64,000 bases of DNA from Effrenium voratum. Its lineage: Eukaryota; Sar; Dinophyceae; Suessiales; Symbiodiniaceae. How positions within the stretch are numbered: position 1 is the stretch's first letter; each line of letters starts with the position of its first letter. This document shows, piece after piece, positions 3,193-15,659 of this stretch. A program made the position numbers and the translations under genes. The notes beneath the pieces are model-generated. The model made no database searches. It was not told the origin of the DNA and worked only from the letters and a program-made list of their open reading frames with translations. Location: the NCBI GenBank assembly GCA_963377175.1, contig CAUJNA010000591.1, positions 990,001 through 1,054,000 on the forward strand. Reading direction: 5' to 3'.

Positions 3193-3346
3193 AGACTCTT
3201 CAAAGCACCACATTGGTGCTACTGGCACCTTAATCGCGAAACGGTGCATCCTTTACGCCGCATAAGGATTAGTGCCAAAATGGGAGGATTGCCCAGCTCC
3301 ACTGGGCAGCTCCCCTCAGCAGCTGATGGGAGTAGAATTGATGCCA
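3193..3346 (-). repeat. terminal repeat B, outer copy
   Basis: 154 bp that match 8893-9046 with two differences (3226 C/T and 3248 A/C). It holds three short hairpins: AGCACCA/TGGTGCT with a 3-nt loop, GCCCAG/CTGGGC, and TCAGC/GCTGA inside CTCCC/GGGAG. It lies 51 bp beyond the RT stop, so it forms the 3' end of unit II. The hairpins are candidate recombinase or RNA-structure sites. Confidence 0.92.
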
Positions 3347-3397
3347 CTCCCACAGCGAGGGAGGAATCCTCCCACCTCACCGGATGCCCTCCCGGCA

Positions 3398-5602
3398 TCA
3401 TGGGTGAGGAAGGAAAGTAGCGAAGATCAGCTTGATCAATTCGCTTTCGACTGAGGGGAAGACCCGGTTCTCAGTCGGAAATTGCGGGTCCGGATGAGTA
3501 AGTTCATCCGCCCATGTGTTAAAGTCGCGCTTCACATGCGACGGTCCTAACATGACCTGGTGGTCATGCAGTGTTAACACAATTTCCATGAGGATGGCCG
3601 CATTGGGCATCCTGCGAGTGGAATCGTTAAGCAGGGAGAAAACGTTTCCCTGGTTATCACTAGCAACCAGAATCCTAGTGTGAGAAGCCGAGCCGGCTGC
3701 ACAAAGCAGAACAGCCCTCACCAAAAGGAGGAGGCCGAAGAGCTCCAAGGCCGCTATCGCCCGCTGCGGGTCCCCAGTAGTGAAGGCCCACGGCTCGCCC
3801 TCCGGTGTGATTCTGTGTTGGAACCACTTCACTCGGGACTTGTCGGGGTTGGGCACGTCCGAGCACCAACCACCAACCCATGCATGGTCCGCCTGTTTGC
3901 CAGCTCCCGCATCAGATGCCCCCGTCCATGGAAGTGTGGGAGCAAATGGAGATGCCAGTGGGAACCTCTGGTTGAAGAGCTTCCCCAGAAGGATGGCCAG
4001 AGCACGAACCAGCTTCGGTGGCCTGCCCGAAGTGGTGCAGGCCTTCTTCCAGCTCCAAAAGGGCTGGAGGAAAGGTTTCGTCAATGGACACGCCGAAGTA
4101 GCCCATTGAATCCGGCCCAGGGCTTGTTCCACCTCCTTGCTGGTAAAGATGTCCCCCTGGGCCAGCCGTTTGAGAGTGGCCAGGATTATGACGTGCTTGA
4201 CTGGAGCCAGCAGCACACAGGGCGTGATTGGGTCCACCACGAATCCCAACCAGGTATTGACCGGGGAGAGCGCCGTCTTCTTCCAAGAAAGCGGGACTCC
4301 CAGCGCCAGAAGAGTGGCCAGGATGGCTGTGGCGTCCCAGTCCGCCCTGCTGCATCTGAGGACCCAGCAGTAGTCGTCCACAAAAACTAAGTGCCAGTCC
4401 ACCTGAGGGAAGATGTAGTACAAGAGTCTGAGCACCAAGGATGCCTTTCTTCCCCAGTACAGTTGTGCCGAGGCCATGCCGTACGTGCCCACTCTATTGA
4501 CCCACCACCGGTTCTGGATGCAGGCCACCTGGTATTTCCAGTCTTTCTGGAGCACTTTTATGCGCCTGTAAGCCTTGGTGACATCCGCCTTGAGGATGAT
4601 GAAGGTTTCCCCCTGTGTCGGCGGCTGCCACGTCAGGGGTTCCGTGCCTGGGGGGGTTGGGGGGAAAGGGGCAGTCCCCAGGTGCCGAGGGCCCTGAGAG
4701 GGACCCCCACAGCACCAGCCTGCCCCCAGGTGCCGAGGGCCCTGATAGGGGCAGGCGGATGATGGAGACCTCCGACGACCTGGACGTCTCTCCGCGGTCA
4801 ACACCCTCAGGGAAGGGGCCACTCCCAGGTGCCGAGGGCCCTGATAGGAGGGCCCCTGCACCGGCTGGTGAACATCCCGAAATTCCTCATCAGTGCCCGA
4901 GGATGGGGCTCGGAGTAGATGAGGATGGTCCGCCGCTGTCCTGAGCCAGTGGATGGCATGGAGGCAGTCTCCAACCATCGGTGCGGTGGTCTTCTCCTCC
5001 GTGTGAGCCTGGATGTGTGCGTTTGCTCCCCCTTTTGAGCCATCATAGATCGTCCTGATCTTGTCCGACTCATCAATCCCTGCAAGGGGGCCCGGGCAAA
5101 GTTCCTCCGGTTTGCAGCGGCACCTCTCTGCCGCCTCGGAGCGAGTGAAGGGCCCGTCCACCATGTCCAAGGCTCGTTCCTCGTAAAAGGTTGATTCGAT
5201 TTCCTTGGCAAAGAGTTCAGCCGTTGGGTAGTTATCATGAGCCACTGGCGGGGGGGGATCTTCCCCCAGCCAGGCTTCTCCCTTAAGCTCCTCCTTAGTG
5301 GGCCAAACTCCCGGGGAGGTCAAGGTAGGGTCCGAGACTCCCAAGGGGACCCCCTCTTTCAGTGTTAGGGGGAACTCCCAATCAGGGTCACCTGAAAGGG
5401 ATGCCAAGTGCGACACTAAGTCCAGGAGGAAGGGTTGTCCTGGGCATCGTTCATGGAGGTGCCTCGGTCCTAGGATAGCCCGCAGCTCCTCGAGGTCGGC
5501 TTCCTGGAAGGGGTGTGTGGTGGCACCTGATGCCAGGGACATTCGGACCTTGTCAATCCAGGGCCGGGTAAGGGTCAAGATCAGGGTGCCCAAAGTAGCC
5601 AA
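3398..5602 (-). CDS. reverse transcriptase-RNase H polyprotein
   Basis: This 734-aa frame would copy element RNA to DNA and remove the RNA strand. Visible pieces, in order: a conserved pre-RT block KIRTIYDGSKGGAN (residues about 182-195); RT motif A KADVTKAYRR (338-347); YGMASAQ; the catalytic FVDD box (407-410), a variant of YxDD; and an RNase H-like region with ASDAG near 563, the Glu of ALELFG near 620, SDNQGN near 650 and WADELTHP near 705. Residues about 225-330, between the pre-RT block and motif A, are a Pro/Arg-rich insert carrying three inverted copies of the 19-bp element motif (read as QGPRHLG); it does not break the frame. The frame is otherwise intact. The start is uncertain because the upstream frame at 5708 is close and may once have been joined. 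The RT family call is confident; activity is inferred only. Confidence 0.88.
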   Translation of the reverse strand: MATLGTLILTLTRPWIDKVRMSLASGATTHPFQEADLEELRAILGPRHLHERCPGQPFLLDLVSHLASLSGDPDWEFPLTLKEGVPLGVSDPTLTSPGVWPTKEELKGEAWLGEDPPPPVAHDNYPTAELFAKEIESTFYEERALDMVDGPFTRSEAAERCRCKPEELCPGPLAGIDESDKIRTIYDGSKGGANAHIQAHTEEKTTAPMVGDCLHAIHWLRTAADHPHLLRAPSSGTDEEFRDVHQPVQGPSYQGPRHLGVAPSLRVLTAERRPGRRRSPSSACPYQGPRHLGAGWCCGGPSQGPRHLGTAPFPPTPPGTEPLTWQPPTQGETFIILKADVTKAYRRIKVLQKDWKYQVACIQNRWWVNRVGTYGMASAQLYWGRKASLVLRLLYYIFPQVDWHLVFVDDYCWVLRCSRADWDATAILATLLALGVPLSWKKTALSPVNTWLGFVVDPITPCVLLAPVKHVIILATLKRLAQGDIFTSKEVEQALGRIQWATSACPLTKPFLQPFWSWKKACTTSGRPPKLVRALAILLGKLFNQRFPLASPFAPTLPWTGASDAGAGKQADHAWVGGWCSDVPNPDKSRVKWFQHRITPEGEPWAFTTGDPQRAIAALELFGLLLLVRAVLLCAAGSASHTRILVASDNQGNVFSLLNDSTRRMPNAAILMEIVLTLHDHQVMLGPSHVKRDFNTWADELTHPDPQFPTENRVFPSVESELIKLIFATFLPHP
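4679..4844. repeat. 19-bp motif cluster inside the RT (3 copies, inverted)
   Basis: Exact CAGGTGCCGAGGGCCCTGA lies on the plus strand at 4679-4697, 4727-4745 and 4826-4844. This orientation is opposite to all 15 other copies in the element. On the coding strand all three are read in the same frame, as QGPRHLG. Confidence 0.95.
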
Positions 5603-5707
5603 TGGGGAAATTCTCCGAAAAGGGGGGTTGAGCCTCCTGGGGAAGGTTTTCCCCCCCCATCCCTCAGGGGGCGTGAGCGGAAACCCAATTGGACAATCGC
5701 CACCCGG

Positions 5708-7432
5708 TCAGTGAGGTGTGGGACCCTGAAAGCGGGCAGGCATTCGGGGCGGTCCAGGACCTGGTCCCCCTGTCCCTCCTTCCCCAGTTGTTCCGCATCT
5801 CCGGCCATCGGGCATGAAGTCTGGGTTCATTGTTCCACGAGGGCTTACGGTGTCTGCCTCAGGGTGGAACTGCCCGTGCAGGCGGGGCTTCGGGGCGTTC
5901 TTGCCTCCGGGCTTTGAGCCCTGGTGTGATGAGGAGGGACCGCCTCCTTGACTGGGCCCCCGTATTCCCCGGGGGGAATGGCCTTCCGGGGGGTCCGACC
6001 CCCGCCCCTTAGGTGGTTCCTTGGGGTTTCCCGGAAATTGTGAGGGGATCCGGATGTGCCCCGGCGCTGCGAGAGACACAGCGATGGCTTTGGCCAGGCC
6101 TGCCATCATATCCCAAGGGTATCTGCTAAGAGTCGAGGACTCGTTGGTGCCCACATGTGACTGATGCGTGCACCGCATTTGATCCCAGTCCTGGATCGGG
6201 AGATCCGTGGCCAGCGTAGTGGCCTACTTGACCAGCTGGCCCAGGCGGCACTGGTCGAAGGAGATTGCTGTCAAGGAGTTCTCCTCCATCCAAAGCTGCC
6301 CCTCCTCTGTGATCCAGAAGGATGAGCATTCCTTGGCTTTGGGCAGCGAGCTGCTCACCACTGGGTCCTCCGGGTGTTCCAGGAAGGACCTGGGCCCTGG
6401 CAGAGAAACCGCCGCTCGTGAGGCCCTTGCCAGGCTGGTGATGTACCTCTGTCTCAGAATGAGGATGCTGTCATCATCAAGTTGAGTCTGGGCGGCCTGG
6501 TCCAGGTGTGGAAGGCCCCAAAGTGTCTCTGGAGTGCGCCCTCGCACCGGGGTGGGAGCCCCCGGTTTTGGTATGTGGCGCAGGATGGACCATGTCCTGC
6601 AGTTGGGTCCTCCTCCAATGAAGCCCACTCGGCCCTGCTTTGCTGCCGTGCAAAGAGCTCCATACAGCTCGGGTTGGAGCATATCGTGGTCCCCTTTTGG
6701 TCCAGACCGTAGGATGTCTACCGCCACCACCATGCTGGAAAGGTGTGGGTAGTTGGCATGAAGACAGCTGTCCAAGGAAGTTGGGTCTTCCTTGCCTGCA
6801 TCGAGCAGGACAATGATGGGCCCACTGGATGGAACTTTGGGCGATGTGCCCTGTGTCCATCTCAGCCGCTGTACCAGACGCTCAGGGATGTTCTCCATCC
6901 ACGGGAAGATGTCCAATCCCGGTGACGGCTCCGTTGGACTTGTCAGGGGGGTAGCTGAAAGGCGTTGGCCCCCTTCATTCAGCCACCGAGCTCTTGTGGA
7001 AAACCACCGGGTCCTGCTTGATGATGTTGGGCGCCGGAAGTGGGATCGGCTGCTTCCTGGGAGTGTCCCTTGGCGTTGCGGTGTGCTGCCAGTCATCCGG
7101 CACTCGGGCCTTCTGGGTGCGGCCCCCCGTGTCAGGGCCCTCGGCACCTGCGGGGAACCGTCCCGTCCCCGCCATAACAGGGCCCTCGGCACCTGTGGCT
7201 CGGGACTGAGGCGCCGCCGTTGTGCCGGTTGTGTGGCTGTTCTGATCACGGCGAGGGCGTTGTGCACGCTGGTTCTGCCGTCCCCATCCTTGTTCCGCCG
7301 AGGATGGCCGCCACCTGGCCTGTCCCCCCCCTGTGTCAGGGCCCTCGGCACCTGCAGGAGGGGGCATCTGTGCCTGCTTGGGGCGTTTGCGCCCCTTCTC
7401 GCCCCCCCGGGCCTTATCAGGGCCCTCGGCAC
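5708..7432 (-). pseudogene. cytosine-methyltransferase-like ORF with in-frame TAG
   Basis: The main frame (7432-6224, 402 aa) has a repeat-rich N-terminus with QVPRAL copies made by the 19-bp motif. It then shows a Rossmann-like stretch and the motif GGGPNCRTWS (residues 273-282), which resembles the catalytic PC motif of C5-cytosine methyltransferases (PNC replaces PPC). FLEHPEDP (350-357) resembles the ENP motif. The frame stops at TAG (6226-6224), yet the same frame continues at once with ATTLATDLP and reaches a stop at 5708. So one TAG interrupts what looks like a single protein: a nonsense mutation, or readthrough. Methyltransferase domains are known in DIRS-order elements and cytosine methyltransferases have been reported in dinoflagellate retrotransposons; the target here is unknown. 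The annotated start is a GTG inside a 19-bp copy and is doubtful. Confidence 0.65.
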
Positions 7433-7435
7433 CTG
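7132..7435 (-). repeat. 19-bp motif cluster in the methyltransferase ORF (4 copies)
   Basis: Copies at 7132-7150, 7177-7195 (last base changed), 7336-7354 and 7417-7435 read CAGGTGCCGAGGGCCCTGA on the minus strand. In this ORF they are translated as QVPRAL. Confidence 0.93.
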
Positions 7436-7469
7436 AGGCCTCCCGGGGGGTAGGGGTCAGCGCCCCTAG

Positions 7470-8762
7470 TCAACCCGGGCAGTCCTGCGGGAGGTGGTCC
7501 CCCAGGCAGATGCGGCCCATTGCCAGGATGAGGTTGCACTTGTGGGTGCGGCCGCAGTTGCCCGGGCCGCGCCCGCGCATCCAGTTGTTACAGAACTGGT
7601 TCCCTTTCGGGTCGGTGGCTGCCTGCTTGTTACCGCCCCGGGACGCCTGATTGTTCAGGTGGGGGGGCTTACCCTTCCCTTTGTGCCCAGGCTTGCCCTT
7701 GGACTTCCCCTTGCCCTTGGACTTGTTCTTGCCCTTCTGAGGTGGTGCGTAGTCCATGGATGTCTTGGTTGATGGGCGGCCCCTGGAAAAGGTCTTGATC
7801 TTCTCATAGACCTCACGTGTCCAGAACAATGTGTCCTGCCTGACCGACAGCATGGCCGCCTTGAGGGTGTTGCCCTCATGCATCTTCTCGTGAATCTTTC
7901 GCCATGCGTTGCGTTCGGCAATTGCCAGGACGTGGTCCTCTGGCGAGGGAAAACGGCCCCCGATGTCCTCACCATAGAACCACTCGTACCAGCTCTCCAA
8001 GTCCTCCCGGGTGATGTCGAACTGGCCGAACTGCGGGAACGAGAGGACGCACATGAGGAGGGTGTTGCGGAACACCGCGTGCATCCTCTCGAGCTGTTGG
8101 CGAGTTTTGGGCTCGCCCCGCTCTTCCACCTCATCCTCCCGGTCCCAGCCATCAACCGTGCTCTTCTTAGTGGTCTTCCATGGCCGTTCTCCTGGCTCCG
8201 GGAGTGCGCTTACCAGGTATTTCATGGGGATGAAACCGATCTCGCCTCCTGCGCAGAGCTTGAACTGGCGCTTCACCAGCTGGTCGCTTCCTTGAAGGGC
8301 CAGCTTGGGTTTGGTGAGCTTTGTCTTCTCCTCCCAAACCCTCTCCAGCTGTCCCCGTTCGCACGAGACCGTGAGATTCGGGGCGGTGTCCCCGGGCGTG
8401 TGTGGCCCGGGTCCCGCTGTAGCATGCGCCCCAACTCCCATGGATCGTTGAGCCGCGTGAACCACCTGGAACATGCGGGCCGCGATCAGCCGGGAGGTCA
8501 CATCCGTGTAGTGGTGGTTGTTGGGAGCGAAGCCCAACTCCCCCGGCGCCGTCTCCCTTGCACGGTCGGGCGAGTCCCACCCGGTCGCGAGGTCCTCCAT
8601 CGAGACAAAGCCCTCATCCGACAGTGTCGCTTGGATGAACCACGGGATGCCCTTGAGGACCATGAGGTTCCTGGCGGTCTTGTGGAGCTTAGCCACTGCG
8701 TCCGTGTACACTCCAGGAACTTCCTGTGGTGGTGCCACCAACTCATCTGGTGTCACCGCCAT
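7470..8762 (-). CDS. Gag-like protein with C-terminal zinc knuckle
   Basis: 430 aa starting at ATG only 15 nt beyond repeat A, so A supplies the leader. The N-terminal two thirds is mixed helical sequence with no recognised domain. A Lys/Gly-rich block (GKNKSKGKGKSKGK) follows, then a Cys/His cluster of the form C-x10-C-x5-C with a later C-x3-H and C (FCNNW, GNCGRTHKC, CLGDHLPQDC). A basic tract plus a zinc knuckle at the C-terminus is typical of nucleic-acid-binding Gag-like ORFs of DIRS-order elements. It is intact and is the first gene of unit II, followed by the methyltransferase-like and RT genes. The Gag role is inferred from position and composition. Confidence 0.7.
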   Translation of the reverse strand: MAVTPDELVAPPQEVPGVYTDAVAKLHKTARNLMVLKGIPWFIQATLSDEGFVSMEDLATGWDSPDRARETAPGELGFAPNNHHYTDVTSRLIAARMFQVVHAAQRSMGVGAHATAGPGPHTPGDTAPNLTVSCERGQLERVWEEKTKLTKPKLALQGSDQLVKRQFKLCAGGEIGFIPMKYLVSALPEPGERPWKTTKKSTVDGWDREDEVEERGEPKTRQQLERMHAVFRNTLLMCVLSFPQFGQFDITREDLESWYEWFYGEDIGGRFPSPEDHVLAIAERNAWRKIHEKMHEGNTLKAAMLSVRQDTLFWTREVYEKIKTFSRGRPSTKTSMDYAPPQKGKNKSKGKGKSKGKPGHKGKGKPPHLNNQASRGGNKQAATDPKGNQFCNNWMRGRGPGNCGRTHKCNLILAMGRICLGDHLPQDCPG

Positions 8763-8777
8763 GGTGTGGGTGGGCGG

Positions 8778-8894
8778 GATTTCAAATCACAAGACAAAAG
8801 ATCAAAAGGTCCACTTGAGCCAAATTGGTGGCCCAAGTGGATACTTATTAAGAGTCAAGACAAGCGACCACCTACGGTTAACGCTTTAGCCCAG
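8778..8894 (-). repeat. terminal repeat A, inner copy
   Basis: 117 bp identical to 15543-15659 apart from 8825 (T for A). On the coding strand it sits 15 nt before the ATG of the Gag-like ORF. It overlaps repeat B by the two bases AG (8893-8894). It contains a spliced-leader-like stretch (8828-8814) with one mismatch. Confidence 0.93.
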
Positions 8895-9046
8895 ACTCTT
8901 CAAAGCACCACATTGGTGCTACTGGTACCTTAATCGCGAAACGGTGCCTCCTTTACGCCGCATAAGGATTAGTGCCAAAATGGGAGGATTGCCCAGCTCC
9001 ACTGGGCAGCTCCCCTCAGCAGCTGATGGGAGTAGAATTGATGCCA
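8893..9046 (-). repeat. terminal repeat B, inner copy
   Basis: 154 bp with two mismatches to 3193-3346. It forms the 3' end of unit I and joins directly to repeat A of unit II. Confidence 0.92.
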
Positions 9047-9147
9047 TCCCCAACGGACGGATCGCATCAGCTGCCAATACCAACGGACGAGCTGGTCGTT
9101 GGGGAGGTCCTCCCTCCACGTATGCCGTGTGGTCCCGCTGTCGCATT

Positions 9148-9474
9148 TCAGGGCCCTCGGCACCTGTGCGTCCAGCGGTCCGGCTGCGGTCCACCCGGTG
9201 CGGATGCCCGGGAACATCTCAGGGCCCTCGGCACCTGTGTCCCCTGGTTCCCGGGGCACTGGCCATGTCAGGGCCCTCGGCACCTGTGTCTCCCCCCCTC
9301 CAGGCCCCTTCGGGGTTGCGTGTCAGGGCCTTCGGCACCTGCGCTCCCCGCTGGCCGCGGGGCTGGGCCTGTGGGGGGGGTAGGGCGTATCAGGGCCCTC
9401 GGCACCTGCGCCCTCTCCCCCTGCCTCCTTGCCTTGAGGCATGGGGGGAAGCGTGTCAGGGCCCTCGGCACCTG
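9148..9474 (-). repeat. 19-bp motif array downstream of the recombinase (6 copies)
   Basis: Copies at 9148, 9219, 9268, 9323, 9390 and 9456 (19 bp each) are spaced 49-71 bp with unrelated GC-rich spacers. The copy at 9323 has one change. The array lies between the last coding sequence of unit I and repeat B, so here it is not coding. Confidence 0.95.
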
Positions 9475-9487
9475 CGCTATCCACCCC

Positions 9488-11040
9488 TCACTCAATTTCC
9501 GGGAGGACGACCGCCTCCTTGTCCGACTGAGTGTCCACGCTCTCGTCGGTGTCCGAGGAGAGGGAGATGGAGGCCTCGGAGTCCTGTGCTGCGTAGGGCT
9601 CCACGGCCATCCACGTGTTCGGGTGAAATGCCGGAAACATCTGGTGCATCCAGGTACACCTCCGGCTCAGCATGGAAGTCCTGCTCCGCCAGCTCCGAAA
9701 TCTTGAGCGGTCCCGGCCTCCAGCCGCACCCCACTGTGACTCCATCTGTGTCCAGTAGGTGCATGCTGTAAGCTTTGGTGGGACCCTTTCGGGCCGTGGT
9801 GGCTACCACCGTCAGTGGACCCCCGAGGCGGGGGCACCTCATCCGCAGCCATCTTGGTGATGGCCGGCTTGTTGGCGGGGATCACATCCCAGCTGGCATT
9901 CGAGGGCGGTGTGTCCGGGACTTCCTCGAACAAGGCCTTCGGTGAGGCCGGGCACTCCACCTTGTCCTCCCAGTCCTCATGTCCGAGGTCGACTCGGACC
10001 GCCCTTCCTGCCTCGAGTTGCAAGGACGGGAGCTTCTGGAGGACCTGGTCCCAGATGGAGCACACCACGTGTCGCTTCTCCCGGGTGTAGACATCCGCCG
10101 TGGACTCCTTGAACCAGTTTCCCAGGTACTGGCGCTGGTCCCTCGGTATGTGCGCCTGGAATGCCAAATCCGGCATGAAGACCCGGAAGGAGTACCATGA
10201 GAGTTCAGCCACGTCCTTGACTGGCGCGCCCAGCTTCCCCAAGGCGTCTTTGAGCCACCTCAGGGACCTGTCTGGGGTTCCTGGGCGGGGGATGAAGCCC
10301 GTCCTGTCCTTGTTGATCGTGGGGATCAGGTAGTCCATCTCGCGGAACTCCTCCGAGGCCCTGAATCTCTTCCACCACCGCTCCAAGGGGATCCACCATC
10401 TGGCCCCCGAGAAGGAGAACACTGGGGCGATGAGCGGGACCGGGTTCCGTTTGATGGCCACTGCCGACGTGGTCTTCGTTTGCCAGGCCAGCAGCTCCAG
10501 GGTGTTGCTCGTGGACTTGACCGTCTGCGGCGAGGTGTGCTGCACGTCGTTGAAGCGCGCACTGCAGGCCCGGTTGAACCTGGCCATCGCCATGATGTAC
10601 CTGTCCACTGCTTTGGTCAGCTCCGGGACCCGGTTCTCCGGCGGGGCCCCTTCTGCCCCTTGTTCCAGGGCCCAAACAATTGCCCGGGTCGGAACCACCG
10701 CCTTGCGCTGTGGCTTGACCTGGGTGTCCACCAGCGACTCCTGGATGGCTTTCCGCTTCTCCAGGAGTTGTTTGTGTTCGTCAACGTTGAGCATGCCGAG
10801 TTTAATGGAGAGCCACTTTAAAGTGCCCCACCACTTCTGGAGCTTCGCCGGGGTGACCTCCAACGTGACCGCCGGGTTCATGAGGTGCCGGACGTCGCCG
10901 GCCGTCCAGGGGAGGTTCTGGAAGCCGATCTTGCGCATGCCCTCATAGGCCAAGCAGTGTGCCCGGATGGTACGGAACCGGGCATCACCAAAGAGGTGGC
11001 CAAACTCCTCCAGCTCCCTGGCCCCCATCACCTGGTGCAT
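9488..11040 (-). CDS. tyrosine recombinase (integrase)
   Basis: The main frame is 11040-9667 (457 aa). It would cut and rejoin DNA at the element ends through a 3'-phosphotyrosine intermediate. Candidate active-site residues are Arg162 (ARFND), a Lys in WQTKT near 187, Arg286 in WYSFR, and the nucleophile Tyr318 in ADVYTREKR. The usual HxxR histidine is replaced by Tyr283 (YSFR), and the LGHW-type second histidine reads LGNW. A core-binding region precedes the catalytic part. After about residue 400 two frameshifts (near 9830 and 9635) move the natural C-terminus into other frames. Those frames hold LTVVATTARK, WRPGPLKISELAEQDF and an acidic tail ending at 9488. The recombinase call is confident from the order of motifs; activity is uncertain. 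Confidence 0.82.
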
Positions 11041-11849
11041 GGTGCCGGCTCCGGGCGTACTCCATGACGCCGGGGGCCACGCGGCTCTCCCGGCTGGTGG
11101 GCTGCGCGCTCTCCCTCAGCGTCTTCTTGCTGTGGCAGTCGCCGCACAGCGCCTGCAAAATCTGCACGCTGCCCGCAAAGGCCTGCCTCACCGGCACCAC
11201 GTGGTCCAGCTCGCCCGCAGCCGCACAGCGCGCACTTGCCGTCCTGCGCGGGGAAGGGGATGAAGTATCCTAGGAGGCGTTCCAACCACCTGGCCCTCAA
11301 GTGTTGTTCCAACGCTCTCTGAGATGTCGGCAATTGGGTTTTGATCTTCCCTGGTTTCCAATGCCGCCACTTGTTGGCCACTGCCAGGACATCCGGGGCC
11401 TCAATCGATCCGGAAAGGATCCACTCTTCGCGGTCCCGGATGGCCTGTTCCATTTCCCGTGGAGAATAGGTGTGCGATTGCCTGGCGCCTGCCGCACGAA
11501 ACAGAAGTTGTTGCAGGGTCTTAGTAGCGAGCTCCAAATCCGCCTCCTCCAGCGGTTGTGGTTGGGAGCCGAGTATCCTCGCGAGGATCAAGTTGTAGGT
11601 GTCCGAGGCCACCAGGACGTGGTTGCCGTCCGGTGCCAGCCCCACGATCCGTGTCCACGGCCGCGGGTCAAAGACCACCGCATCCAGGTTGGCGACCTTG
11701 TCCTTTTTGACCCATTCCAGGCAGCACGCCACGAGGATTTCCCCGTCCGACTGCACTGGTGCAAATCCAAGGTCATGCAAAATCAACTGGAGCGCGGTTA
11801 GGAAGGTCGTCCCAAACGGGGAAGGGAGGCGGGGCCTCCACATCATCAT
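10985..11849 (-). pseudogene. HNH-nuclease-domain ORF, frameshifted
   Basis: The frame opens at 11849 and runs through about 200 residues of unrecognised sequence to GKCALCG. One extra base then throws it out of frame. In the next frame (to about 10985) the sequence continues as GELDHVVPV, ILQALCGDCHSKKT and SRVAPGVMEYARS. CxxC, LDH and CxxCHxxKT are the zinc and catalytic signature of HNH endonucleases. The domain lies directly upstream of the recombinase and overlaps its start. A nuclease beside a tyrosine recombinase is unusual for a DIRS-order element. Whether the frameshift is a mutation, a programmed shift or an assembly error cannot be told from one copy. Confidence 0.7.
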
Positions 11850-12743
11850 GATCCACTCGAGCCGGGGGCCTAGTCCCTAGGTGCAAACCCCAACCAAACA
11901 ACAGGGGGCCCCCCAAAACCCCGGAAAGTCAACCCCGAAACGGAGGACACGGGGGAAAAAAGGGGGACCCAGGGAGCCGCCCCGAAAAGGGAAAACCAAA
12001 CAAGAGAGGGGAACCAAGGCGCACCCCGGATCAGCCCAAGCCGCGCCAATTTTCCTCGCCTGGTGCAAGTCTGGGCCTGCGCTGTTCCCTGGGGGGGGAT
12101 ATCAGCCCCCCCGGGGTGCGCTGCGCATCCGTTCCGGATGGCCGCGGTCCTGGATGGTGTGCCGGAAGATGGCGTTGTCCCGCATCATCACGCGGCCCCC
12201 TTCGCGATGACATCGATGCGCTTGAGCGCAGCAGCCTCCGGATTCCGCAGAATCAGCTCCCAGATGGCATTGGAGACGTGGCCTGTCTGGGTGGTCTGGC
12301 TGAATCTGAACCTGGGCACCTTCTGGTCCACGATGGAGACGTCCCGCAACGGGGCCGAGGGCTCCACCCGGCGGTAGTACTCCAGCCGCTCCTTCACCCA
12401 GCGGTTGTAGAGGCCCTCCGGCGGCTCGTCCAACACCAGCTGCAAGATGGCCTTGCCGGCCGATCTGGAGGAGGCGGGTGCCCCCTCCCCCGGCACGCCA
12501 GTACCCCTTACAATACTTGCACATGTAGCCCCCCCGGGTCTCCCCTTTTGTCTTCGGGATGAGTTCCCACGGGGTGACGGAGCTCAGGACCAGGCCACAC
12601 TCCATGTGCGCCCAGAAGACATGCTTCATCTCCACCGGATAGTTCTTCTTCCGGTAGTCCTTACCCACCACGCCGTGGACGTTGTCCGCCGTGATGGGGG
12701 GGTAAACGATCCCCTCATCGCCCTCGCCTCCCCTGGGCGGATG

Positions 12744-12762
12744 TCAGGGCCATCGGCACCTG
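12744..12762 (-). repeat. 19-bp motif, single copy
   Basis: One substitution from the consensus. It is read as GADGPD in the ORF1 remnant. Confidence 0.85.
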
Positions 12763-13573
12763 TCCGGCACCCAGGGGCGGAGGGGTCCAGGCCCATCAGC
12801 TTGATCATGTCGTTGGTGTAGCCGAGCTTGCGGTAGATGGAGGGGGCCACTGAGTCGGGGACTGCGCCGACCCACCACTGCTGCGCCAGTTGACCTTCAC
12901 CTCCGCCAGGGCCCCCGGGCCTCCAATGCGGTCCATGAGGGCCTTGTACACCTCTGGGAACTGCTGGAGGCTCTCCACCGGGACCGAGATGCGCTCGTCG
13001 CATACCGCCCGCAGGATCATCTGCTCCTTGGAGTCCGCCACGTCCTTCAGGGTCTCCCAGCCCTCCAGGCGGGTCTGATTCTGGGCCTTGTTTTTCGGGC
13101 CCCGCTGCCTAGGGCCCTGCAGCAGTGGCAGAGACTCCCAGACTCCCCAGCGCAGGGTGTAGCTGTGCCCGAACATCCCCAGTAGGCCTGGGAGTGTCCA
13201 GGACGAGATCTGGCGCATCCAGTGGAAGTCCTCATCCGGATCGTGGGGGGCAGCCCAAAAGATGGATCGCAGGTCCCCAGGGTAGGGTCGGTCCCCCGCC
13301 TTCGCCTGCTGGTGCAACTCATCAACGGAGTACCTGGCCCAGGGGAGTCCACCCACCTGGTGGTTCCTGGGATGCGTGCCCTTCTCCAACGCCTCCGGAT
13401 TCACCTTGGTGAGGTTTTTCGCCCAATCCGGGACGTGTGCCGGGCCCGGTCGTCGGACCCAGCGGCCCGCAAAGATAGCCTCTCCGACCCGTTTGCTCAT
13501 CATCCAGCGCAGGACCGAGAGCTGCACCTCCGGGTCCTTGGTGTCCAGGCCCACCGGGGTGGCGGACGGCTTG

Positions 13574-13658
13574 TCAGGGCCCTCGGCACCTGAGCTCGGC
13601 ACGCCAGAGCCCGAGGCTGGGGGGATGGTGGGCGGCCTGTCAGGGCCCTCGGCACCTG
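13574..13658 (-). repeat. 19-bp motif, two exact copies
   Basis: Copies at 13574-13592 and 13640-13658, both read as GAEGPD in ORF1. Confidence 0.93.
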
Positions 13659-14475
13659 GGCGCGCCGCACCAGAGCCCCCCGCCTTTGGCATGGGGATCC
13701 CTGTCAGGTCCGGCAGATCTGACAGGAGGGCCGCCGGGAAGGGATTCCTACCCAGCGAGATGACCGCCTTGGCCTCAAGATAGGAGTCCGTGAGGGATGT
13801 GAGGTCGTCCATACTGAAGTCCCTCCATGCCGTTGTCGGCTCGAAGACCCCAGTCTCAATGGCGACCCGGACCTCACTAGGCCACGCACTGAAGGGAGGC
13901 GCGATGGGCTCGAGCAGCCCTTCGCCTGTCTGGCTTGGTGTTTCGCTTTCGCTTCCTCCGCAGTGGTCTGGGCCTGGAGGAGCTCCGGTGTGGGTCTCCC
14001 CCAGTCCGCACCCAGCTTGTCCAGCAGCTTCTCACGGAAGAGGTCCAAGTCCAGGTTCTTCAGGAGCAGGCCTCCATCACCTCCTCCGTCAATGGCCCCC
14101 CCTTGAAGTTCGTGGAGGACCGCCGCGGAGCGCTCCACCGCTTCCACCTGGTCCGCCTTCTTGGCCTCCTCCTGGGCGATGGTGGTGGCGTTGAGCCGGG
14201 TCTGAATCTTGAAGGCCTTCACCGCAGACGGGTGGAAGGCTCTGCATTCCTGGCCCTCTTCATTGTCGCCTGGCAATGGGGGCCTCTCCCCCGGTGGGGC
14301 CGTCAGAAACTCCTCGTCCAGCTCCATGGGGCAGTTCCTGATCACCGCCCGGACCGAGGAGGGGACGAAGTCCGAGAAGCTGGCCTGGTCCGGGTTCTCG
14401 CAGGCCATCGGGTCGGTGGCCAGCGCGCTGACGTCCACCGAGGCACTGAGCTTGAGGTCGCGGGCCCGGTCCGTG

Positions 14476-14494
14476 TCAGGGCCTTCGGCACCCG
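14476..14494 (-). repeat. 19-bp motif, diverged copy
   Basis: Two substitutions from the consensus; read as GAEGPD. Confidence 0.8.
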
Positions 14495-15247
14495 CGGACC
14501 GGGCCGCCGTCCAGACCGCATTGCCCTGGTCATCCACCGTCAACTGCCAATGCGTGCCCGCCATCTCCAGGGTGGCCGAGGTGGTCGCCGTGTCAATGGG
14601 CTCCGTCTTCTTGCCGCACCCCATGCACTTCGTGGCGCCCTTCTTCACCCAGGGCATGGTGCAGCAGGGGCAGATCCAGGATGTGGGCACCTTGCCCAGG
14701 GGGCGGTTCTCCAGGCCCCCGTACCCCAAGCCAGCGCACTTGCCAACCTGCTGTCCCGGGGTGCTGAGCCGGGCCTCATGCTCGTACTTCATCTTGGCGA
14801 TGTAGAAGGCCTCCACAACGCGCTCCAGGCCCCCCTGCTTGAGTTGGGGGCCCTCAAAGCCTCGCAGGAGCCGCTGGACGTCCTTGGCCTGCCGTCGGCG
14901 GAGCCTAGTGGCCGTGGTCGCATCGAAGGAAGTCGCCCGCCATCTGGTCGTCGCTGAACTGGTAGAGGCCCTCCGAGACCTTGAGGGCCTTGGTGAACAC
15001 GCTCCCCCCGGCGGGGGGGCTGCGGGGTTCTCATCCTCCTCCGAGGACGCCTGCTCCTTGACCTTCGCCATCAGCTCCCGGCGCCTCTGCCACTTGGCGT
15101 CTGCCCGGGCATCCAGGCGGGCCTCCTCCAAGCGGGCTGCAGCCGAGGGGGACCTGGGCATCTTCTCGTCCTTCGCCAGGAGCTCCTCCATGGGCACGTC
15201 CTCCTCCGGCGGGTTCAGGAGCTCCAGGAACGCCCCTGGGGGGCGTG

Positions 15248-15266
15248 TCAGGGCCTTCGGCACCTG
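15248..15266 (-). repeat. 19-bp motif, near-exact copy
   Basis: One substitution; read as QVPKAL, a different frame from the ORF1 copies at 13.6 and 14.5 kb. Confidence 0.88.
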
Positions 15267-15542
15267 CGCCACCCCAGGGGCTGCATCTTCCATCGGCTCA
15301 TCCTCTGCCTTGCGCTTGGCCGGGATAAGGGGGGCCTGCTCCAGCTCATCTGCGCTGGAGAAGAAACGCTCGTCAGGTGCCTGAGGGACCTCAGCAGCCA
15401 AAACGGTCCATCCTTCTTCCTCCCTCTTCACGAGGCTCGCCAGGTACTTTGCCATGGAGGCCTTTGCCTTAGCCTTGGCCTCTGCTACCGCGGCACCAGC
15501 GTAGGCGGGGGCGTACATGGCTTTGAGAGTAGGGGAAAGAAA

Positions 15543-15659
15543 GATTTCAAATCACAAGACAAAAGATCAAAAGGTCCACTTGAGCCAAAATGGTGGCCCA
15601 AGTGGATACTTATTAAGAGTCAAGACAAGCGACCACCTACGGTTAACGCTTTAGCCCAG
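15543..15659 (-). repeat. terminal repeat A, outer copy, with spliced-leader-like segment
   Basis: 117 bp. On the coding strand it contains CCATTTTGGCTCAAG (15593-15579), identical to the 3' fifteen bases of the dinoflagellate spliced leader. That segment sits inside a stem CCACTTG/CAAGTGG. The ORF1 ATG follows 24 nt beyond A. A is therefore likely a leader or promoter region as well as a recombination end. Confidence 0.9.

Follow-up and report, generated by a model that had tools for sequence, protein, structure and literature searches.

A 64,000-nucleotide (nt) stretch of the genome of the dinoflagellate Effrenium voratum (contig CAUJNA010000591.1, positions 990,001 to 1,054,000; hereafter the window, whose own coordinates are used below) contains a retroelement whose two halves, units I and II, share the same terminal sequences, A and B, and carry different genes. 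The question raised by this locus is what moves as a unit. A preliminary description, made from the letters of the window, had left two answers side by side: a bipartite element whose parts use one recombinase and one reverse transcriptase in trans, or a single element whose split repeat lies, unusually, in its centre. Our analysis indicates that the 12.5-kb element is very probably a single, autonomous retrotransposon of the tyrosine-recombinase kind, its split direct repeats standing in the order A1-I-B1A2-II-B2. The order of its halves additionally tests the circular-intermediate model of DIRS and PAT elements, because two equal junctions predict both orders.

On the minus strand, from 15658 to 3194, the order is A1-[ORF1, tyrosine recombinase]-B1A2-[Gag, Pol]-B2 (ORF, open reading frame), and the repeats are located as follows:

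15543-15658, minus strand: A1, 5' terminal repeat, beginning TGGGCTAAAG
8894-9052, minus strand: B1, internal counterpart of the 3' terminal repeat, ending GAAGAGTC
8778-8893, minus strand: A2, internal counterpart of the 5' terminal repeat, abutting B1 directly
3194-3352, minus strand: B2, 3' terminal repeat, ending GAAGAGTC, followed by non-element flank

The A-genes-B-A-genes-B arrangement with near-identical copies, as described previously, was reproduced by BLAST within the window: the A copies (15659-15543 and 8894-8778) show 1 mismatch in 117 positions and the B copies (9052-8893 and 3352-3193) 4 in 160, while no third copy of A or B was detected by BLAST in the 64-kb window. The E-values of these matches, 4e-54 and 1e-73, exclude a chance origin of the repeats. 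B terminates in GAAGAGTC and A starts with TGGGCTA. Inside the element the two are fused with no extra base, so the inner junction has exactly the sequence that joining the two outer ends would give; the element thus already contains, at its centre, the junction that linking its own ends would create. Past the end of A, the first ATG follows after 24 nt in unit I (15518) and after 15 nt in unit II (8762). The Pol frame stops at 3398, 45 nt ahead of B2, so coding indeed ends before B. By eye, a perfect 7-bp hairpin, AGCACCA-ATG-TGGTGCT, was noted near the end of B (8893-9052 and 3193-3352), possibly a 3'-end signal.

The assembly to which the window belongs (1,155,904,702 bases, or 1.16 Gb, in 3,699 contigs) was searched with parts of the element; only the copies closest to each query were scored, and the counts below refer to samples, not to a census. 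The search for the B-A junction proposed in the preliminary description was productive, as a 275-nt query gave 866 candidates, the best 40 of which were scored and all matched over the full length at 99% or more. Ten copies other than that of the window were read over 18 kb each, and 10 more near their expected ends only. Unit I, the junction and unit II stand in line in nine of the ten copies read through, including one (contig C1379) with an assembly gap over its 5' part; the tenth (C1207) carries an internal inversion and a deletion taking in the junction, with Gag and Pol present in rearranged form. The length of the element is 12.06-12.47 kb in 8 of 10 copies and 11.5 and 7.9 kb in the other two (window copy included, C1379 left out). 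Non-element sequence follows B2 in 21 of 21 copies, the window copy included, and precedes A1 in all 18 in which A1 was found (of 21; in two it was not found in the 801-nt stretch, and one falls into a gap); the 20 further copies sit in different flanks. The base before GGGCTA is T at all 18 outer A1 ends, and no target duplication was seen at copies whose flanks were read. In 8 of 10 copies A1 and A2 do not differ over the 115 nt that were compared, and B1 equals B2 in 9 of 11, except for two edge bases that differ alike in all. With copies so nearly identical, the element appears to have been active recently. Scans of genome-contig and viral-contig collections yielded no confirmed relatives.

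Whether the halves also occur in the order II-I was examined through the junction, unit I 3'-end and unit II 5'-end searches. Altogether 64 junctions were located (59 by coordinate and 5 by reading), and 61 of them have the order I-II from at least one side, as established at 20 loci read and at the places of unit II 5' ends and unit I 3' ends; the remaining 3, which are among the best 40 of 866, were examined on neither side. The reverse order, which the preliminary description had suggested looking for, was shown in 0 of these 64 junctions. Among the best 40 of 571 unit I 3' ends with B, A came next in every case (35 by coordinate, 5 by reading), giving no solo unit I in 40 scored 3' ends. 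As for the 5' ends of unit I (best 40 of 595), the coordinates place a junction downstream of 27 (that of C1207 inverted), and the 13 others were fetched, 5 of them showing a junction (one with a diverged A) and 2 unit II sequence after a deletion. The best 40 of 580 unit II 5' ends comprise 24 that coincide with scored junctions, 14 with B upstream and 2 preceded by flank, i.e., 38 of 40 are preceded by B. One of the two exceptions (C779:847842) was taken as a fragment, because Pol and B are absent where expected. The other (C69:519334) is a clean solo unit II of 5,648 nt (A-Gag-methyltransferase-like part-reverse transcriptase-B; C69, about 519333-524981) with clean A and B ends, non-element flanks, the usual T before GGGCTA and some 0.6 kb upstream free of unit I.

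As all 40 scored unit I 3' ends enter A, 38 of the 40 scored unit II 5' ends follow B and the order II-I was not seen in the junctions located, what moves is a single element with a B-A junction at its centre, not an obligate two-part system. The second of the earlier answers is thereby upheld, with 18 A1 and 21 B2 outer ends lying in different flanks. Units that are separately mobile, share their ends and complement each other in trans, with the composite produced by frequent co-insertion or tandem joining, would agree with the full A and B ends on both units and with the clean solo unit II on C69. Obligate partners should have left independent solo insertions of both units, and these amount to 0 of 40 for unit I and 1 of 40 for unit II; a solo unit I was not shown among the 40 scored 5' ends either, and the order is fixed, unlike the result of random tandem joining. 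We therefore regard a bipartite element acting in trans as extremely improbable. The finding of a solo unit with A and B ends had been proposed as a test between the two answers; such a unit does exist, but recombination between A1 and A2 could yield it, which would be the simplest origin of the C69 copy, and its unit I counterpart was not found among the unit I ends scored.

The genes of the two halves are the following:

12805-15518, minus strand: ORF1 of unit I, 604 + 335 amino acids (aa) in two frames, broken in the window copy
9491-11849, minus strand: tyrosine recombinase gene of unit I, interrupted by an insert and frame-shifted close to its 3' end in the window copy
11042-11258 (approximately), minus strand: insert that carries an HNH nuclease motif and lies within the recombinase gene without belonging to the element
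7470-8762, minus strand: open Gag-like ORF (430 aa) of unit II, with a basic KGKGKSKGK stretch
6053-6913, minus strand: N-terminal part of Pol, methyltransferase-like by motif only (GGPNCRTWS, EHPxDP)
3398-5689, minus strand: part of Pol with the reverse transcriptase (VDD motif) and an RNase H-like region

ORF1, for which protein relatives were likewise found, is open in 3 of the 10 other copies (850, 1029 and 1178 aa), and full-length relatives of the recombinase have 723-767 aa. The predicted fold of the recombinase (P0001) has a mean pLDDT (predicted local distance difference test) of 74.7 and a pTM (predicted template modelling score) of 0.44. Fold comparison was used for this protein, since the profile search of solved structures found no match, and its ranks 1-27 are all Cre, Tre, XerH or integrases (best E 2e-3, probability 1.00); modelled in this way, the unit I enzyme would be a Cre-like tyrosine recombinase. 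Some protein matches of the recombinase and of Pol carry Symbiodinium, Polarella or symbB/Skav names. ORF1 and the recombinase are thus present as had been described, although both are broken in the window copy, whereas the HNH nuclease listed with them had to be rejected as a gene of unit I. The HNH motif (Pfam HNH, E=4e-4, 20.9 bits versus a cut-off of 21.4) belongs to an insert of the window copy alone: in 8 of the 10 other copies read at length, 16 nt take its place between matching flanks of 49 nt and 42 nt, and in the remaining two the right side is deleted (L025) or the region is rearranged (L029).

In unit II, the Gag-like ORF gave no Pfam match, and each relative of Pol consists of one ORF, the longest having 1,221 aa. 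Pfam RVT_1 matches 5 of 19 sequences scanned, the Pol profile matches chains of reverse transcriptase/RNase H polyproteins with E 0.0025, and the VDD motif is invariant across 19 aligned Pol sequences; judged from these sequences, unit II encodes a reverse transcriptase. For its RNase H part the support is weak, consisting of a single RVT_3 match (E 0.015) in the 19 sequences. In the N-terminal part of Pol, the motifs GGPNCRTWS and EHPxDP resemble those of C5 methyltransferases. This region found neither a Pfam match nor a convincing one in the Foldseek fold search, and PF00145 (DNA methylase) matched none of the 19 scanned sequences or 9 window ORFs. Of the gene set proposed earlier for unit II, the methyltransferase-like part stands on its motifs, Pfam and the fold search not confirming it.

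The gene content of unit II also bears on a possible derivation from Ngaro, i.e., an Ngaro-type element that gained coding capacity through sequence inserted between A2 and B2. Ngaro likewise combines a tyrosine recombinase with split direct repeats, and according to the accessible text of PMC8547959 it has the structure A1-[ORFs]-B1A2B2 with nothing coding between A2 and B2. In the Effrenium element, by contrast, the essential Gag and Pol occupy exactly this interval, as they do in 9 of the 10 other copies (the tenth has them rearranged). We consider such a derivation very unlikely, and the earlier remark that the layout is unlike that of Ngaro was correct.

In the circle model of DIRS elements, as given in the accessible part of PMC3266345, internal complementary regions serve to join the ends, and recombination of the circle with the target leaves the latter unduplicated. 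Following this published model, an RNA running from A1 to B2 would be copied into complementary DNA (cDNA), the inner B1A2 would act as the template that allows the B2 and A1 ends to be joined, and the recombinase would insert the product without a target duplication. Each half probably also receives a 5' leader of its own from A and a 3' end of its own from B, which would allow two messages to be expressed from a single element.

Several observations weigh against the interpretation of the locus as a single autonomous retrotransposon of this type. One true solo unit II exists (C69), and of the 40 unit I 5' ends 5 were left without assignment and 1 runs into an assembly gap. The recombinase received no match from Pfam or from the profile search of solved structures, and no fold match at E ≤1e-3. 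Finally, a double-strand circle with two equal B-A junctions should yield the order II-I in about half of the insertions, together with free single-unit circles. As none of the 64 junctions was shown to have this order, the circle model in its simple form would have to be supplemented (e.g., by the rule that only the new junction is used) or is wrong here; presumably, either the newly made junction alone is used or the intermediate is a different one.

The solo copy on C69 could alternatively indicate that the recombinase occasionally cuts the inner junction, a double-junction circle being resolved into single-unit circles that insert themselves. The identity of the inner B-A with the fused outer ends fits this proposal, as do the clean ends of the C69 copy and the usual T before GGGCTA. 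The same product is given, however, by ordinary recombination between A copies, and cutting of the inner junction also predicts the swapped order, yet 0 of 64 junctions show it (61 canonical, 3 examined on neither side). Occasional cutting of this kind thus seems unlikely.

Beside its split repeats, the element contains a family of hairpins with a common 19-nt core, CAGGTGCCGAGGGCCCTGA, distributed through both halves:

12724-15284, minus strand: five hairpins in ORF1 and just past it, cores at 15248, 14476, 13640, 13574 and 12744
9128-9492, minus strand: array of six hairpins lying between the recombinase gene and B1, cores at 9456, 9390, 9323, 9268, 9219 and 9148
7112-7453, minus strand: four hairpins lying between Gag and the methyltransferase-like part of Pol, cores at 7417, 7336, 7177 and 7132
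4667-4856, plus strand: block of three hairpins in Pol, inverted relative to other copies, cores at 4679, 4727 and 4826

With up to 3 mismatches the core occurs 18 times in the element (15284-4661) against 0.06 occurrences expected in the window; none was found elsewhere in the window, nor in 113,882 non-element bases (window and 18-kb stretches). The apex of the hairpin, CAGG-U-GCC-GAG-GGC-CCUG with an ANA bulge, is constant, while the stems are copy-specific and covary. In the minimum-energy fold the apex helix is formed by 17 of the 18 hairpins, and the copy at 7195 folds otherwise. When left and right flanks were re-paired between copies, none of 20,000 re-pairings reached the observed stem-pairing score of 294 (maximum 266). 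Of all cells 88.5% pair; the outer stem reaches 77.0%, its three outermost pairs failing in 7-10 of the 18 hairpins. Changes on both sides were counted in 43 cells versus 18.0 in shuffles, and the covariation score was 0.370 versus 0.107 in shuffles and at most 0.139 when the alignment was slid. Other measures were weaker, as the 7 pairs changed on both sides were reached by 41 of 500 shuffles and the further pair types by 10 of 500. These figures are to be read with the structure being derived from the same sequences that were tested, and with controls that leave the relatedness of the copies in.

A nineteenth hairpin, found neither in L023 nor in the window, is present in 9 of the 10 other copies, and its apex has CAGC..GCTG for CAGG..CCTG, i.e., a double change. 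Of the window hairpins, 15 of 18 lie in the transcript sense, the other 3 forming the single inverted block; among the 10 other copies, 9 carry the hairpins of the Pol block in forward orientation, and in L025 one of the three is reversed. Inversions touching hairpins were seen in 3 of 11 copies (window, L025/L026 and L029/L030). Distant Pol relatives are without the segment that bears the Pol hairpins, and an Rfam search with the hairpins gave two matches far under the gathering scores, none credible. Covarying hairpins running through the genes of both halves represent a second, unexplained constraint on a family with nearly identical copies. The hairpin may be a protein-binding RNA mark, an aid to strand transfer, or a selfish hairpin confined to the element. 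A more specific proposal, which we put forward tentatively and hold to be rather doubtful, is that the hairpins are a repeated cis-acting recognition element of RNA or single-strand cDNA, marking the RNA for the element's own Gag or ORF1 protein or guiding strand transfer; together with a recombinase that seemingly avoids the inner B-A, this would constitute a packaging and joining mechanism for which the literature searched gave no counterpart among tyrosine-recombinase elements.

Among known systems, the PAT group has the Gag-Pol half first and the recombinase half second. In the Effrenium element the recombinase half stands on the 5' side and is followed by the Gag-Pol half (61 of 64 junctions, 3 examined on neither side), which is a cyclic permutation of the PAT order. 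Of the features by which PAT elements are recognized, the Effrenium element has the split repeats, the position of the internal repeats, the recombinase (by predicted fold) and the reverse transcriptase (its RNase H part weakly). Split direct repeats, tyrosine recombinase and reverse transcriptase are all shared with Kangaroo of Volvox and the nematode form of Pat1, and in both, according to the accessible text, the internal repeats lie between the methyltransferase and the tyrosine recombinase (Szitenberg et al., 2014, PMC4157794), so that coding in both halves is already known. The preliminary description had not considered these elements, whose internal-repeat position the present layout does fit: the internal repeats likewise separate the recombinase half from the Pol half in 9 of the 10 other copies, the tenth being inverted and deleted there. 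Differences are that the recombinase of Kangaroo is inverted (same text), whereas it is in sense here, and that the Effrenium element has its own long ORF1 in unit I, the hairpin repeats and a size of about 12.5 kb.

In dinoflagellates, a close counterpart is SymbioDIRS-Dnmt3 of Symbiodinium, compared here by text and legend (de Mendoza et al., 2018, PMC5890265). As far as these describe it, it is likewise a DIRS-type element with A/B repeats and a separate recombinase ORF; its Pol has a methyltransferase part, to which the methyltransferase-like motifs of the Effrenium Pol may correspond, and it occurs in two forms with Pol and recombinase in shuffled order, one of which may resemble the Effrenium element. 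Its structure is given as A-coding region-B-A-B, in contrast to coding in both halves here, and its DNA methylase is detectable by Pfam, whereas PF00145 is unmatched in our sequences. The palindromic or double-hairpin elements of organelles, thought to be selfish in the accessible text of PMC2670323, resemble the hairpins in being many and dispersed; those of Effrenium differ in being confined, in the sequence read, to one retrotransposon, mostly in one orientation, also within genes, and with a constant apex and covarying stem. Neither the exact layout nor the hairpins were found described in the dinoflagellate DIRS/Ngaro and hairpin literature, among the matches listed and in the accessible parts of these sources, including PMC5890265, PMC8547959, PMC4157794, PMC6681497 and PMC3266345. 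With its repeats divided as in Kangaroo and Pat1, the layout of the Effrenium element is a variant of the known split-direct-repeat kind.

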